Positions 3,878 to 21,582 of a DNA stretch of 64,000 nucleotides are shown here, in pieces. Location of the stretch: positions 1 to 64,000 of the forward strand of contig QHNH01000015.1 of assembly GCA_003218375.1 (NCBI GenBank). The letters run 5' to 3'. Within the stretch, counting starts at the first letter, position 1. Each line of letters begins with the position of its first letter. A model generated the notes under the pieces. It saw only the letters and a program-made list of their open reading frames with translations, was not told where the DNA came from and searched no databases. Made by a program: the position numbers and the translations under genes. Source of the DNA: Verrucomicrobiota bacterium (GTDB lineage: Bacteria; Verrucomicrobiota; Verrucomicrobiia; Chthoniobacterales; UBA10450).

Positions 3878-4189
3878 TTACTTCCCCGTGGCGTTGATGC
3901 GCACTGCCTTGGTCGAGTCGGTGCCGAGGGTGACGTTGACATTCATGCCGGGCTTTAGGTCGGCGGCGGTTGCCCTTATCCCATTCACATTGATTTCCGT
4001 GAATTGAGTGATGGCCAGCGTCTTGGCGGTCTTGCCTTCATTTATCGTGATGGACGTCGCCGTTACGCTCGCGATGACCGGACCTTGAATCACAGGTGGC
4101 ACCGGCTTCTTCTTGGCCGCGGCAAAGGCCGGGCTAAGCGTTAGCGTTCCGAGTAATAGGGTAAGGAAAAGGAAGCGGAGTTTTCTCAT
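3878..4189 (-). CDS. small secreted protein at the end of the pilus-like operon
   Basis: The product has 103 residues with a strong signal peptide (MRKLRFLFLTLLLGTLTLSP, then AFA). The mature part is short, beta-rich and basic, with ITINEGKTAKTLAITQFTEI and the hydrophobic turn AADLKPGMNVNVTL. This resembles the small OB-like beta-barrel repeats of DUF5666-type proteins, but the family is not certain. The start codon lies two bases after the stop of the secretin-like gene, so it is probably translated from the same messenger. Function is unknown. Its place as last gene of the pilus-like cluster suggests a periplasmic accessory role, which is inference. Confidence 0.75.
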   Translation of the reverse strand: MRKLRFLFLTLLLGTLTLSPAFAAAKKKPVPPVIQGPVIASVTATSITINEGKTAKTLAITQFTEINVNGIRATAADLKPGMNVNVTLGTDSTKAVRINATGK

Positions 4190-12869: not shown

Positions 12870-13106
12870 TCGAGATCCTCGTTCCCAATGCCTGCCCGCC
12901 GTGGCGGGTTGCACTTGGGAACAGCAATGCCGCCGCGCCGATCATATCTGCGCGCAGAGTTTCGGATTGCCGCCAAGCAGCGGGGAAACTACGTTCCGGT
13001 CGACGGCCCTCCGCTTGAAAACTTTTCTCCAGAAATCCAACCGTAATAGACGGGAAAATCCCGCCTTTAAATGCGGGATTTTCCCATCTACTTCTCGTTA
13101 GACCTC
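12870..13106. other. gene-free stretch with two hairpins, before the first cassette
   Basis: No convincing gene is seen. It holds a hairpin with outer arms GTTCCCAA/TTGGGAAC and inner GCCCGCC/GGCGGGT (about 12892-12932). It also holds a perfect 13-base-pair stem GGGAAAATCCCGC/GCGGGATTTTCCC at 13052-13085 with an A/T-rich stem end. The second could act as a terminator or mark the edge of the cassette array that begins at 13097. Confidence 0.6.
13097..13103 (+). other. attC R'-type half site (GTTAGAC)
   Basis: GTTAGAC fits the integron consensus GTTRRRY and lies four bases before the ATG of the first small gene. No matching R'' partner was found upstream, so this is probably the right end of a decayed attC. 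Confidence 0.5.
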
Positions 13107-13424
13107 ATGCGCATCGTCTCATTGTCGCTGTTCGTCGTGCTCACAGCCTGCGCATCGTCAGATCAGTCAGCGCTACGCGAGATCGAGAAGCAATACGTGA
13201 CGACCTACTACGACCGCAATCACGATGGTATCGTGGACTTCGAGCTACATGACATTCCAGGTGCGGCTGACGCCGCTTGGGCCCTCAGCGACACGAAGTT
13301 CAGAGGACGCTACGACGTTCGTTTGAAGTTTGGCTACGCATTTCAGCGAGAGAAAGTTGATCTCCCTGTTCCGAAGAACGTGAAGGTTACTTCGGGCAAG
13401 CCTCCAGTGTTTACCACCCGATGA
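13107..13424 (+). CDS. small lipoprotein with EF-hand-like loop (cassette gene)
   Basis: The product has 105 residues from the ATG at 13107. A longer start at 13071 would read through the upstream hairpin and half site. The N-terminus is a lipoprotein signal (MRIVSLSLFVVLTACASS, lipobox LTAC). The mature part has DRNHDGIVDFEL, which fits a calcium-binding EF-hand/dockerin-type loop, followed by a short beta-rich tail. No family is recognised. It is flanked by GTTAGAC upstream and by an attC-like site that begins one base after its stop, so it is best read as an integron-type gene cassette. Confidence 0.65.
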   Translation: MRIVSLSLFVVLTACASSDQSALREIEKQYVTTYYDRNHDGIVDFELHDIPGAADAAWALSDTKFRGRYDVRLKFGYAFQREKVDLPVPKNVKVTSGKPPVFTTR

Positions 13425-13425
13425 G

Positions 13426-13549
13426 GTCTAACCAATCGCTGGAGCCAACCGCTGGCCGCTGTGAAGTCCACATTTGATTTTATGAAACAGTTCTCAATGT
13501 TTGCCATGCTCGCCGCCACCAGCGGTGGCTCAGCTCAGTCTCGTTAGAT
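13426..13549 (+). other. attC-like integron recombination site
   Basis: The left box GTCTAAC (13426-13432) fits RYYYAAC and the right box GTTAGAT (13543-13549) fits GTTRRRY. Inside them, GAGCCAACCGCTGG pairs with CCAGCGGTGGCTC with one extra base, as expected for the bulged stem of a folded attC. The central loop is about 65 bases and carries no gene. Confidence 0.7.
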
Positions 13550-13566
13550 CCTGACGCCCTCACGAT

Positions 13567-13875
13567 ATGCCAGCGTTGCTCTTCCGATACGTATTGCCGT
13601 TCTTTTTTCTCGTCGCCCTCGTCGGTGCCGCCGTGCTCTGGACTAAAACCAGACGAGCGGCTGCGCTCGTCCAGATGATCGCTTGTCTTGTCATATTCCT
13701 GATACTCGCTCTTGAGCAGGTCGCCGAATACCTGATGAGGGCTGCAAAGCCGCAACTGCTGAATTTTATTAACGGCGCCGATATGCAGTTTGGTGGGCAA
13801 ATTCTTCTGATTATCTGTTTTGTCGCGCTTCCCATCGGCTACCTTTGGTATGCGCTCACACAAAAGCGGACCTAA
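13567..13875 (+). CDS. small integral membrane protein (cassette gene)
   Basis: The product has 102 residues with three likely membrane helices (YVLPFFFLVALVGAAVLW, AALVQMIACLVIFLILAL and GGQILLIICFVALPIGYLWY) and a basic C-terminal tail. No family is recognised. The start lies 18 bases after the right box of the upstream attC site, and its stop overlaps the left box of the next attC-like site, which is the normal layout of an integron cassette gene. Confidence 0.65.
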   Translation: MPALLFRYVLPFFFLVALVGAAVLWTKTRRAAALVQMIACLVIFLILALEQVAEYLMRAAKPQLLNFINGADMQFGGQILLIICFVALPIGYLWYALTQKRT

Positions 13876-13956
13876 TCATGCGGTGCAGCGAACTCCGAAG
13901 GCTTTCGCACGACAGGCCGCCAGCCGCCGTTGATCCCGTGTCTCAGGAGATTACGT
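13870..13956 (+). other. degenerate attC-like site
   Basis: The left box ACCTAAT differs in the last base from RYYYAAC, and the right box ATTACGT is off-consensus. The sequence next to the left box (GCGGTGCAGCGAAC) resembles GATGCAGCGAACCGC at the same place in the 20671 site. It is probably a decayed attC between two cassettes. Confidence 0.45.
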
Positions 13957-13965
13957 TCTCCGTCA

Positions 13966-14433
13966 ATGTCACCAGTGTCACTAAGACTTGTCCTGTTTAG
14001 CGCGGTAACGGTAATGATGCCTGCTGTTCTTATCGCCCAGACGATGAAGGGGGCTTCGGGCTCACATCGAATTGCCGATGCGATCCCGATGAAGGCTGTT
14101 GTCCACCAAGTGCCGCCGGAATATCCGTACGAAGCGCGTCGGAGTCACATCATTGGCTCCGGGATTCTGAGTGGCCAGGTCGACATCAAAACTGGGATTG
14201 TCACATCTGTCGCGATGGAGAAGAGCACAGGCAACACTATCCTCGACCAGGCTGCTTTGAACGCGTTTCGTCAGTGGCGTTTCAAACCCGGAACGGTGCG
14301 CCATTTCCGTACTCCCATTAACTTTACCATGGGCGATTTCCGAAACGGGCCCTCGACGTCCTCTCAGTCGGGTGACGGGCTGGGCATTACGAAAAATAGC
14401 GATGCCGGCAAGAGCGCGTCGGGCCACCGGTAG
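13966..14433 (+). CDS. secreted TonB C-terminal-domain protein (cassette-like gene)
   Basis: The product has 155 residues from the ATG at 13966 (MSPVSLRLVLFSAVTVMMPA signal, cleaved near LIAQ). A TTG start at 13930 would read through the attC-like site. The mature part is a TonB C-terminal domain: VPPEYPYEARRSHIIGSGIL, GQVDIKTGIVTSVAM and STGNTILDQAALNAFRQWRF, then KPG. Unlike true TonB it has a cleavable-type signal and no Pro-rich spanning linker. It therefore looks like one of the orphan periplasmic TonB-C proteins common in soil bacteria. It starts ten bases after the degenerate attC site. A full attC downstream was not found. Confidence 0.75.
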   Translation: MSPVSLRLVLFSAVTVMMPAVLIAQTMKGASGSHRIADAIPMKAVVHQVPPEYPYEARRSHIIGSGILSGQVDIKTGIVTSVAMEKSTGNTILDQAALNAFRQWRFKPGTVRHFRTPINFTMGDFRNGPSTSSQSGDGLGITKNSDAGKSASGHR

Positions 14434-14479: not shown

Positions 14480-14620
14480 CGGCATTGATTCGCTTCTCCC
14501 GAAGCTCACCCCTGGGGGCTTGGTCCATCTCGCACCGCTCCCGCGGGCTCGATTGATTCGGGTGCTCCCGCAGCCTCACCCTTCGGGCTAGGTTCATCTT
14601 GCACTGCTCACGAGGAGTCT
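14480..14620. repeat. two imperfect tandem repeats of about 55-80 bp
   Basis: CTCCCGAAGCTCACCC...GGGGGCTTGGTCCATCTCGC and CTCCCGCAGCCTCACCC...GGGCTAGGTTCATCTTGC follow each other in the same direction, each ending in GCACxGCTC. No gene is seen. The repeat fills most of the gap between the cassette array and the terminator at 14651. Confidence 0.65.
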
Positions 14621-19413: not shown

Positions 19414-20226
19414 ATGCCACGCGACGTTTTCATTTCCCACTCGGCCCAGGACAAAAAGGTCGCGGAAACCATTTGTGGGGCGTTGGAACAGTCCGGCATC
19501 CAATGCTGGGTGGCGCCACGGGATGTGCGGCCGGGGCGTTCCTTCCCGGGCGAAATCACCCGGGCGATCCAACAGACCAAAGTGATGCTGCTGATTTTCT
19601 CGCGGCATTCGAACAGCTCGGAACAAGTGCTGCGCGAAGTGCAGCTCGCCGTCGATTGCCATGTGCCCATCGTCCGGCTGCGGATCGAAGACATCCCGCT
19701 CAGTGACGATCTGCGGTACTACCTGAGCACTCCGCATTGGCTTGATGCCCTCACCCATCCGCTCTCGAAACATATTCCGCCGGTGGCCGCGGCCATCCGG
19801 GAGTTACTCGGACCATCTTCGGCCGAAAATGAAACGGCCGCAGCCGCGCCTCAACCGCCATCGGCTGAAGTAGTGATGAAACAGCGCGCCGCCTCTGCCG
19901 GACAACGATTTCCGGTGAAGCGGGGCTCGGTCGTCATCGGCACCGACGCGATGCGGCGCGATATCGAATCTTACAATGCCCGGTGGCCCTCGCGCCGCGC
20001 CACCATCCGCGGCGACGTGCGGTTAGGCGAGAAGGCGGCCAACCACAGTTACACCGCCAGCTTCGAGCATGATTACTACGTCGAGAACGCGACTCGGGGC
20101 GAATGGATCAACGGCGCCGTCGCCGTCGACCTTCAGATCACGATCGATGGCGACAGCATCCCGCGCATCGTTTCGATGAAACAAAAAACGCTGCGAAAAG
20201 ATAAAGGAACAATGCAGAAGCGGTAA
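19414..20226 (+). CDS. TIR-domain protein with uncharacterised C-terminal domain
   Basis: The product has 270 residues. Residues of about 1-130 are a bacterial TIR (TIR_2) domain: DVFISHSAQDKKVAETICGA, CWVAPRDVRPGRSFPGEITR, VMLLIFSRHSNSSEQVLREV, and RIEDIPLSDDLRYYLSTPHW, then LDAL. Such domains can cleave NAD+ or bind other TIRs, often in antiphage or signalling proteins. A catalytic Glu was not pinned down. After a short Ala/Pro linker, residues of about 165-265 form a beta-rich domain (DIESYNARWPSRRATIRGDV, ASFEHDYYVENATRGEWING) that I do not recognise. No effector or sensor partner gene lies next to it. It is divergent from NupC, and its 3' end is partly duplicated at 21432-21495. Confidence 0.8.
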   Translation: MPRDVFISHSAQDKKVAETICGALEQSGIQCWVAPRDVRPGRSFPGEITRAIQQTKVMLLIFSRHSNSSEQVLREVQLAVDCHVPIVRLRIEDIPLSDDLRYYLSTPHWLDALTHPLSKHIPPVAAAIRELLGPSSAENETAAAAPQPPSAEVVMKQRAASAGQRFPVKRGSVVIGTDAMRRDIESYNARWPSRRATIRGDVRLGEKAANHSYTASFEHDYYVENATRGEWINGAVAVDLQITIDGDSIPRIVSMKQKTLRKDKGTMQKR

Positions 20227-20416
20227 CGCCGCCAAGAACAAGCTCTGACTCCGGACATCCCTTTGCTGTAGAGGCGGCTGTCTCAGCCGCAATTCCCTTC
20301 ATTCTGATTGCCTTGGCCGTCGCCAGCCCGATAGCATCGGGGAAATGCTCCCCAGCCGCTCTTTCGCAACCAGATTAGACGCCTCAAAGGCGTCTACATC
20401 TGGTTAGACCCTGAAC
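20227..20416. other. intergenic palindromes and attC half site before the second cassette array
   Basis: Two hairpins are present: GCGGCTGTCTCAGCCGC at 20273-20289, and a long palindrome at 20368-20405 with arms AACCAGAT-TAGACGCC and GGCGTCTA-ATCTGGTT. The second overlaps GTTAGAC (20403-20409), which fits the attC right box GTTRRRY and lies eight bases before the next gene start. Confidence 0.6.
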
Positions 20417-20716
20417 GTGTCGCGAAAGCACAAATACATTTTGTTCGCTTGGAATCTTCTCTACATAGCAGTCTTAGTGATTTGCTTCGCTTTGATCGGT
20501 CCGGCTCGCCGCATATCGTGGGACGCAATCCATTCTAAGATCGATTCCTCCACTACGTTTGAAGATCTGTATCCACGAGCTCAACACGCTGTGGCGGCTC
20601 TCCAGGATACCGATAAAGTCGTAGAATGGATTGCGTCGTTCGGGCAAATCCTGCTCGTCCCAATGTCGGGGTCTAACCAGACGATGCAGCGAACCGCGCC
20701 CCGCTCCGATGCGTAA
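20417..20716 (+). CDS. small single-pass membrane protein (cassette gene)
   Basis: The product has 99 residues from a GTG start. It has a basic N-terminus (SRKHK), one membrane helix (FAWNLLYIAVLVICFALIG) and a soluble tail of about 60 residues. No family is recognised. The last 18 or so residues (NQTMQRTAPRSDA end) are encoded inside the left part of the attC site, so the frame reads into the recombination site. This is a common trait of cassette genes. A shorter native end was probably lost, or the attC-coded tail is genuine. The gene lies between a GTTAGAC half site and a complete attC. Confidence 0.55.
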   Translation: MSRKHKYILFAWNLLYIAVLVICFALIGPARRISWDAIHSKIDSSTTFEDLYPRAQHAVAALQDTDKVVEWIASFGQILLVPMSGSNQTMQRTAPRSDA

Positions 20717-20818
20717 CTTTGGTCTAGTTAGTTCGTCCAACTTGCAGCCACGCGCGCTCTCGGGCGCGGTCGCCCCGTCTACGTCACGGCTTAGCAGTCC
20801 GTTCCATTCTCGTTAGGC
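20671..20818 (+). other. attC-like integron recombination site
   Basis: The left box GTCTAAC (20671-20677) and right box GTTAGGC (20812-20818) match both consensus boxes. The adjacent arms CTAACCAGACGATGCAGCGAA and the complement of TTCCATTCTCGTTAG align with spacing bulges. The length of 148 bases is at the long end for attC sites. Confidence 0.7.
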
Positions 20819-20831
20819 CTCTAATGTTCCA

Positions 20832-21344
20832 ATGAATTGGGAAATGCTCTCTGCAATCGGCCAGCTCGCTGCTGCCGTTGGTGTCATTCCGTCGCTCATC
20901 TACCTTGCCATCCAGATCAGGGAGCAGAATAAGGAGCGCCGCCGCGCCGCCATCAACCTGTTGACCGCACAGTGGAGTGATCTGGTCCAATCTGCTCAGG
21001 ATCACGCCGACTTTGCTGCGCTCTTTCTCGAGGGGATGCGCTCTTTCGATAGCTTGGACCGTGTGGCGAAACTGAGATTTAGTGCGTTCTTTACAAGGTT
21101 TACCAGGAATTGCGAAGGGATGTTTCTCTACTATCGCGATGGCGCACTGGACGAGGCTTTGTGGGGAGAGGTCGAAAGAACGATCAGCGACTATTTCGCC
21201 TATCCTGGCGTGAAGGAGTGGTGGTCCACCCGCAAACATTGGTTGACGGATGAGTTTCGCGCGGTGGTAGAGGCGATCATCGCGAAAAATCCCGAACCGA
21301 AACTGTATGCCGCTTACAACTTAGATGCGCTGCCAACGGCCTAA
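20832..21344 (+). CDS. DUF6082/DUF4760-like membrane-anchored protein (cassette gene)
   Basis: The product has 170 residues. An N-terminal membrane helix (ALSAIGQLAAAVGVIPSLIY-like, residues 5-27) is followed by a basic segment (IREQNKERRRAAINLL) and a helical cytoplasmic domain with FFTRFTRNCEGMFLYYRDGA and PGVKEWWSTRKHWLTDEF. This layout matches small uncharacterised proteins of the DUF4760/DUF6082 sort; the exact family is unsure. The start is 14 bases after an attC right box (GTTAGGC). The stop TAA lies inside the next left box (GCCTAAC, 21339-21345), which strongly suggests an integron cassette. Confidence 0.65.
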   Translation: MNWEMLSAIGQLAAAVGVIPSLIYLAIQIREQNKERRRAAINLLTAQWSDLVQSAQDHADFAALFLEGMRSFDSLDRVAKLRFSAFFTRFTRNCEGMFLYYRDGALDEALWGEVERTISDYFAYPGVKEWWSTRKHWLTDEFRAVVEAIIAKNPEPKLYAAYNLDALPTA

Positions 21345-21582
21345 CCAGGCATACAGCGAACCGCGGGAATCGCGGCAGCGAATTCTACGCGAGCCTTCCA
21401 ATGCACAGACTGACGCCTTCTGCGCCCACGAATTTCGATAAAGCAAAAGACCGTTCGAAAAGACAAGGGAACGAGGCAGCGGAGGTAGCCAAGAAGCGGC
21501 GGTCTCCAGAGCACCGAACCAAAAAACGGCGATTTGCAAATCGCTGCTCCTTGAGCCGATTCGGCAAGCCATGGTGTTAGAC
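21339..21582 (+). other. attC-like region with inserted remnant of the TIR gene 3' end
   Basis: It opens with GCCTAAC and GCATACAGCGAACCGCGGG, and closes with GTTAGAC (21576-21582), but at 244 bases it is too long for one attC. Positions 21432-21495 resemble 20172-20237, the 3' end of the TIR gene and the bases after it (TCGAAAAGACAAGGGAAC against GCGAAAAGATAAAGGAAC). A palindrome GCGATTTGCAAATCGC lies at about 21528-21545. It may be two decayed attC sites or one site with an insertion. Confidence 0.5.

Follow-up and report, generated by a model that had tools for sequence, protein, structure and literature searches.

In the stretch of DNA analysed here (64,000 nucleotides, hereafter the window), positions 12957-13951, and perhaps the whole region up to 14433, are very probably the remnant of a chromosomal integron that has lost its integrase gene (intI). 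By definition this array is a CALIN, i.e. a cassette array without an integrase, since it contains two clustered attC sites, one strong (13426-13549) and one weak (13870-13951), and no intI nearby except for a scrap behind the attI site. By origin, it is a decayed integron headed by an attI. We regard it as an integron deprived of intI, and not as a random set of cassettes, because an attI is located at its head and the intI scrap lies at the spacing known from intact integrons. The original prediction, made from the sequence alone, was of an integrase-less cassette array; this core was upheld by covariance model matches, by sister attC sites and by the occurrence of this attC family next to intact IntI in relatives, whereas the attI head and the intI scrap had been missed. 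The features of this first array are as follows:

12957-13030, minus strand: putative 5' scrap of intI (codons ..GGNPKL..; initiation codon gone, frame soon stopped)
13035-13103, plus strand: attI site (model R2, 81.1 bits, E 6.3e-21)
13107-13424, plus strand: cassette 1, small lipoprotein, 105 aa, no Pfam family
13426-13549, plus strand: attC of cassette 1, four boxes intact (R'' GTCTAAC, R' GTTAGAT)
13567-13875, plus strand: cassette 2, membrane protein, 102 aa, ORF between the first and second attC, no Pfam family
13870-13951, plus strand: attC of cassette 2, decayed: R' mutated, R'' and L'' still present (L'' by pattern match)
13966-14433, plus strand: last gene, TonB_C-domain protein, 155 aa (Pfam TonB_C, 4.5e-12)

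The window belongs to contig C40 (121 kb) of the MAG of a soil bacterium of the Chthoniobacterales (3.96 Mb, 98% complete, 52 contigs). This array and a second one, described below, are both located far from the contig ends, and therefore the absence of intI is not an assembly edge effect.

The attI head and the intI scrap

Sites resembling attC were gathered throughout the host genome with the pattern YTAACNNNNNNATGCANCGAAC (up to 2 mismatches allowed), which gave 44 matches versus 4 for the reversed control. The attC covariance model (R1) comprises 19 full sites of the host genome, none of them from the window's contig. Common to all 19 are the R'' and R' boxes, two inner arms that are paired and two extrahelical bases that are not; their alignment has a 24-pair structure with 92% of cells paired, and its compensatory changes exceeded those of all 500 shuffles and of all slid versions. 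The attI model (R2) comprises twelve sites adjoining intact intI in other genomes (none from the host); covariation is present in the hairpin, and the model is weak on short attI subtypes. The search for intI was performed with TIGR02249 (NCBIfam cut-off, 265 bits). An Rfam scan yielded no attC or attI family and, at the gathering threshold, tRNA only.

The site at 13035-13103 is the top R2 match of the entire host genome. It is composed of a hairpin (13047-13090) followed by a simple site, ATCTAC-TTCTC-GTTAGAC, the R box of which ends 3 nt ahead of the first start codon; the crossover is expected at the GTT at 13097. What had been taken for a lone GTTRRRY box at 13097 is thus the end of a full attI. 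Two other readings of this head were rejected: as a short attC it reached only 13.9 bits with R1 (versus 81.1 with R2), and as a transcription terminator it has no T run, invariably precedes an R box and cassettes and is also present beside intact intI. A sigma-70 scan for the cassette promoter Pc found none, and promoters of this phylum may differ.

Upstream of the attI, on the opposite strand, lies what appears to be the start of intI. The sequence GAGTTTCGGATTG at 12957 is separated from the end of the attI R box by 147 nt, the same distance as in two loci with intact intI (L093 and L099). The alignment of the 170 nt upstream of the attI with L093, and likewise that with the head of the host's own C19 array, was better than in all 300 shuffles. 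This putative scrap is short (by itself too short for tblastn) and no longer coding; the assignment is based on its position and on a modest alignment.

CALINs may arise by off-target insertion, loss of intI or rearrangement (PMC8618304), and to which of these they owe their existence is debated. Under the first of these routes, an IntI encoded elsewhere would have placed the cassettes at a chance, attG-like GTT, and the array would never have had an integrase. This may be the case for arrays without attI, possibly including two host arrays (C28 and C25:146k) that have no detectable attI head; in six relatives, attI was visible to R2 in just 28 of 73 arrays, although the 45 remaining are an upper bound, R2 being poor on short subtypes. 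A chance GTT site, however, would have neither an 81-bit attI nor an intI scrap. Because of their attI heads, off-target insertion is strongly disfavoured for both window arrays, and for the first one we consider it very unlikely.

The attC sites and cassettes of the window

The three small genes and their boxes (13107, 13567 and 13966) were found where they had been predicted. The site at 13426-13549, said to have both boxes and bulged inner arms, matched R1 with 95.4 bits (E 2.9e-25); as in other attC sites, the R''/R' and L''/L' arms pair and the extrahelical bases are present. Its bottom strand, folded alone as single-stranded DNA, performed better than most shuffles (z -2.6). The site at 13870-13951 is indeed degenerate, with an R1 score of 18.5 bits (window search, E 0.005): the left half is retained, R' reads CTCAGGAGAT, and, folded by itself, the site does not outperform shuffled sequences. 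Weak as it is, this site is nevertheless in register with the gene ends.

Of the 82 other family genomes, only two contain relatives of the lipoprotein (G007:C26 and G066:C223). In both of them the gene has an attC on either side and is part of an attI-headed array with different neighbours. As a gene with its own attC and with other neighbours elsewhere, it is a gene cassette, and the expectation that the same cassettes would recur in other surroundings was confirmed for it. Pfam also agreed that the lipoprotein and the membrane protein have no recognisable family and that the TonB-C protein does. The inclusion of the TonB-C gene among the cassettes, on the other hand, is unproven. Its relatives are found in 77 of the 83 family genomes, and no R1 match follows 13951 until the second array, so that the gene is without its own attC; given this and its near-ubiquitous family, it may simply adjoin the array and not be one of the cassettes. 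Past this gene, at 14480-14620, lies a GC-rich repeat (GATTCGC..CTCACCC..GGGCT.GG.TCCAT.TCGC.CCGCT), a similar copy of which is located within an attC loop on C2 (L040, about 3990-4080). Possibly, it represents a small dispersed element tolerating attC loops.

Small genes without families are not peculiar to integrons and hairpins are common, and the region could in principle be a row of ordinary genes with hairpins in between. This explanation has next to no probability, as it is refuted by the covariance E-values, the sister sites beside intact IntI and the finding of the same gene as a cassette elsewhere.

The second array, which had also been suspected, is real; its features are:

20364-20409, plus strand: attI with shortened hairpin (R2, 34 bits, E 2e-7)
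20417-20716, plus strand: cassette 1 ORF, 99 aa, no Pfam family, overlapping its attC
20671-20818, plus strand: attC (R1, 52.1 bits, E 1e-12), R' GTTAGGC at 20812
20832-21344, plus strand: cassette 2 ORF, 170 aa
21341-21390, plus strand: attC left half, right half lost (read from the sequence, no R1 match)

This array (20364-21390) is another integron remnant, with a different attI subtype that is nearest to the attI adjoining intI in genome G003 (L099). The R1 match to its attC spans 20671-20790, the true R' being located further on, at 20812. The start of the second ORF looks similar, by eye, to that of the first cassette next to the intact intI of G001 (L094). A gene for a TIR-domain protein (TIR_2, 5.7e-21) is found ahead of the array, at 19414-20226, and the sequence past it (21434-21489) resembles the 3' end of the TIR gene. 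G001, a member of the same genus, lacks both the TIR gene and the second array, and the flanks join there within about 70 bp.

Integrons of the host genome and its relatives

Genome-wide, R1 detected 41 sites to E 0.1, of which 39 had E <0.001. The attC sites of the host number about 39 and are distributed over about 21 arrays, at least 17 of which are headed by attI. Nearly every array begins with a hairpin, about 5 nt and GTTAGRY, followed by the first cassette, and at least 6 attI subtypes can be distinguished by eye. No sequence longer than 140 bp, copies of attI and attC aside, is shared as a cassette by several host arrays.

The window contains no integron integrase, as predicted. Its Xer-like gene at 28.4 kb scored only 75 and 49 bits, far under the family cut-off of 265, and was ruled out as the missing enzyme. 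No intact intI exceeded the TIGR02249 cut-off anywhere in the host genome, and hence no complete integron was identified in this 98% complete MAG, from which an intact copy could be missing. The search for intI elsewhere in the genome did reveal a remnant on C32. Start scraps lie behind four host attI sites, those of C32 (about 65 aa), C21:56k (about 16 aa), C19:264k (about 20 aa) and the window (a few codons), while tblastn behind the other heads gave weak, chance-like matches only. The C32 array (C32:1-2500, L006), in which three attC sites and an attI are accompanied by the abruptly cut 65-aa remnant and then by rlmN, is the least decayed integron of the host. The acetyltransferase-like gene at its end is a close match to the one that directly follows the attI beside intI in G023 (L098).

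IntI above the NCBIfam cut-off was found in 28 of 58 genomes (relatives, host included). The hairpin element that heads the host arrays occupies the attI position beside most intact intI checked in the family, and R1 also matches arrays directly adjoining intact IntI in relatives. For 47 of 55 attI matches in seven genomes (R2 matches plus the short-subtype host heads missed by R2, which were added by hand), an attC follows on the same strand at a distance of at most 2.6 kb; on the opposite strand there was none. Three integrons of relatives, L093 (G007), L099 (G003) and L094 (G001), have the same attI hairpin class, attC family and cassette orientation as the host but, unlike it, have kept a full-length intI divergent from attI.

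Loss of intI was caught at an orthologous locus, G006:C23 and G007:C18, which share the same flank. G007 has kept intI, whereas G006 still has the flank, the array and the attI with 41 codons of intI but lacks about 0.7 kb. In G003, the attI and the intI start are present in two copies (97.8% identity over 417 bp), in one of which intI is cut off after about 130 codons; this pair shows that the attI platform itself reaches new places.

The window arrays are flanked by a nucleotide-sugar epimerase gene on one side and by a TonB-dependent receptor or methyltransferase gene on the other. In six congeners these flanking genes are adjacent, without either array, and thus the genes of the array are not fixed across relatives. 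None of the six carries an intact integron at this locus, and therefore we can only infer the deletion there. In the course of events proposed for the first array, circular cassettes would have been inserted by IntI at attI, with the crossover at 13097, resulting in the row of lipoprotein, membrane protein and possibly TonB-C genes. The intI gene, divergent from attI, would then have been lost by a deletion that spared only its first few codons, as the scrap and the comparable locus in a relative suggest. The attI and the first attC have kept all their boxes, and the second attC has decayed. The array would now be frozen in cis; cassette 1 could in principle still be excised by an IntI acting in trans.

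It might also be supposed that such arrays with an attI at their head are satellite integrons which are still live, their cassettes being brought in and removed in trans by the few IntI of the lineage. The attI copies outnumber intI in most of the family (5 versus 0 in G006, 8 versus 0 in G019 and 11 versus 3 in G007), and in the window the boxes of attI and of the first attC are intact. Moreover, in host C52:1-886 and G007:C26 (L159) the homology of the distal flank starts exactly after the last attC R' box, the cassettes differ and no intI adjoins either; this flank codes for a short-chain dehydrogenase and may itself be a cassette. On the other hand, the host has no intact intI to supply the enzyme, the second attC of the window has decayed, no cassette is common to different host arrays, and the cassette turnover could predate the loss of intI. 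We therefore find this alternative to the loss of intI rather unlikely. Similarly doubtful is the wider proposal that the family integron is a distributed system of many hairpin attI platforms with small arrays, spread over the chromosome without integrase and loaded or reshuffled in trans by one or a few transient IntI.

Comparison with known integrons

CALINs, as defined by Cury et al. and in IntegronFinder 2.0 (PMC9024848), likewise consist of attC sites and cassettes with no integrase nearby, and were about as frequent as complete integrons in that survey (2961 vs 2760); the window array adds a recognisable attI and an intI scrap at its head. In the inactivated integrons of Xanthomonas (PMC12444791) and the remnants of Treponema phagedenis (PMC3607928), intI was likewise lost or broken and the cassettes stayed. 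Xanthomonas, however, has one ancestral intI locus (ilvD) and a few CALINs elsewhere, in contrast to the multiple arrays, attI heads and attI subtypes of the host. The delta-attI cassettes of mobile integrons (PMC12901181) also place attI-type sites away from their usual position, but there, in clinical integrons, the attI is cut and acts as the recombination site of the cassette itself, whereas in the host a whole attI heads the array.

CALINs, decayed chromosomal integrons and co-directional intI are already known; both integron layouts were found here with one attI family. Within the part of the literature covered, no paper on integrons of Chthoniobacterales was found, and the hairpin-bearing attI class, as well as the excess of attI over intI across the family, is apparently new, at least to us. 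An attI without intI is a sign that separates the routes of CALIN origin, and standard tools skip it outside class 1, IntegronFinder seeking attI in class 1 only (PMC9024848). The attI heads on most arrays of one genome point to loss of intI, and a defined attI class is now available for integrons of Verrucomicrobiota.

Two further observations concern the attI platforms themselves. The attI-like sites at C10:172522 and C42:70598 have no detectable attC downstream and are possibly emptied platforms. Finally, in the host (L040, on C2) and in G005:C24 (L155), integron material immediately follows the stop codon of the same gene. The attI subtypes differ and only one of the two has intI, and this locus appears to be a hot spot of integron platforms.
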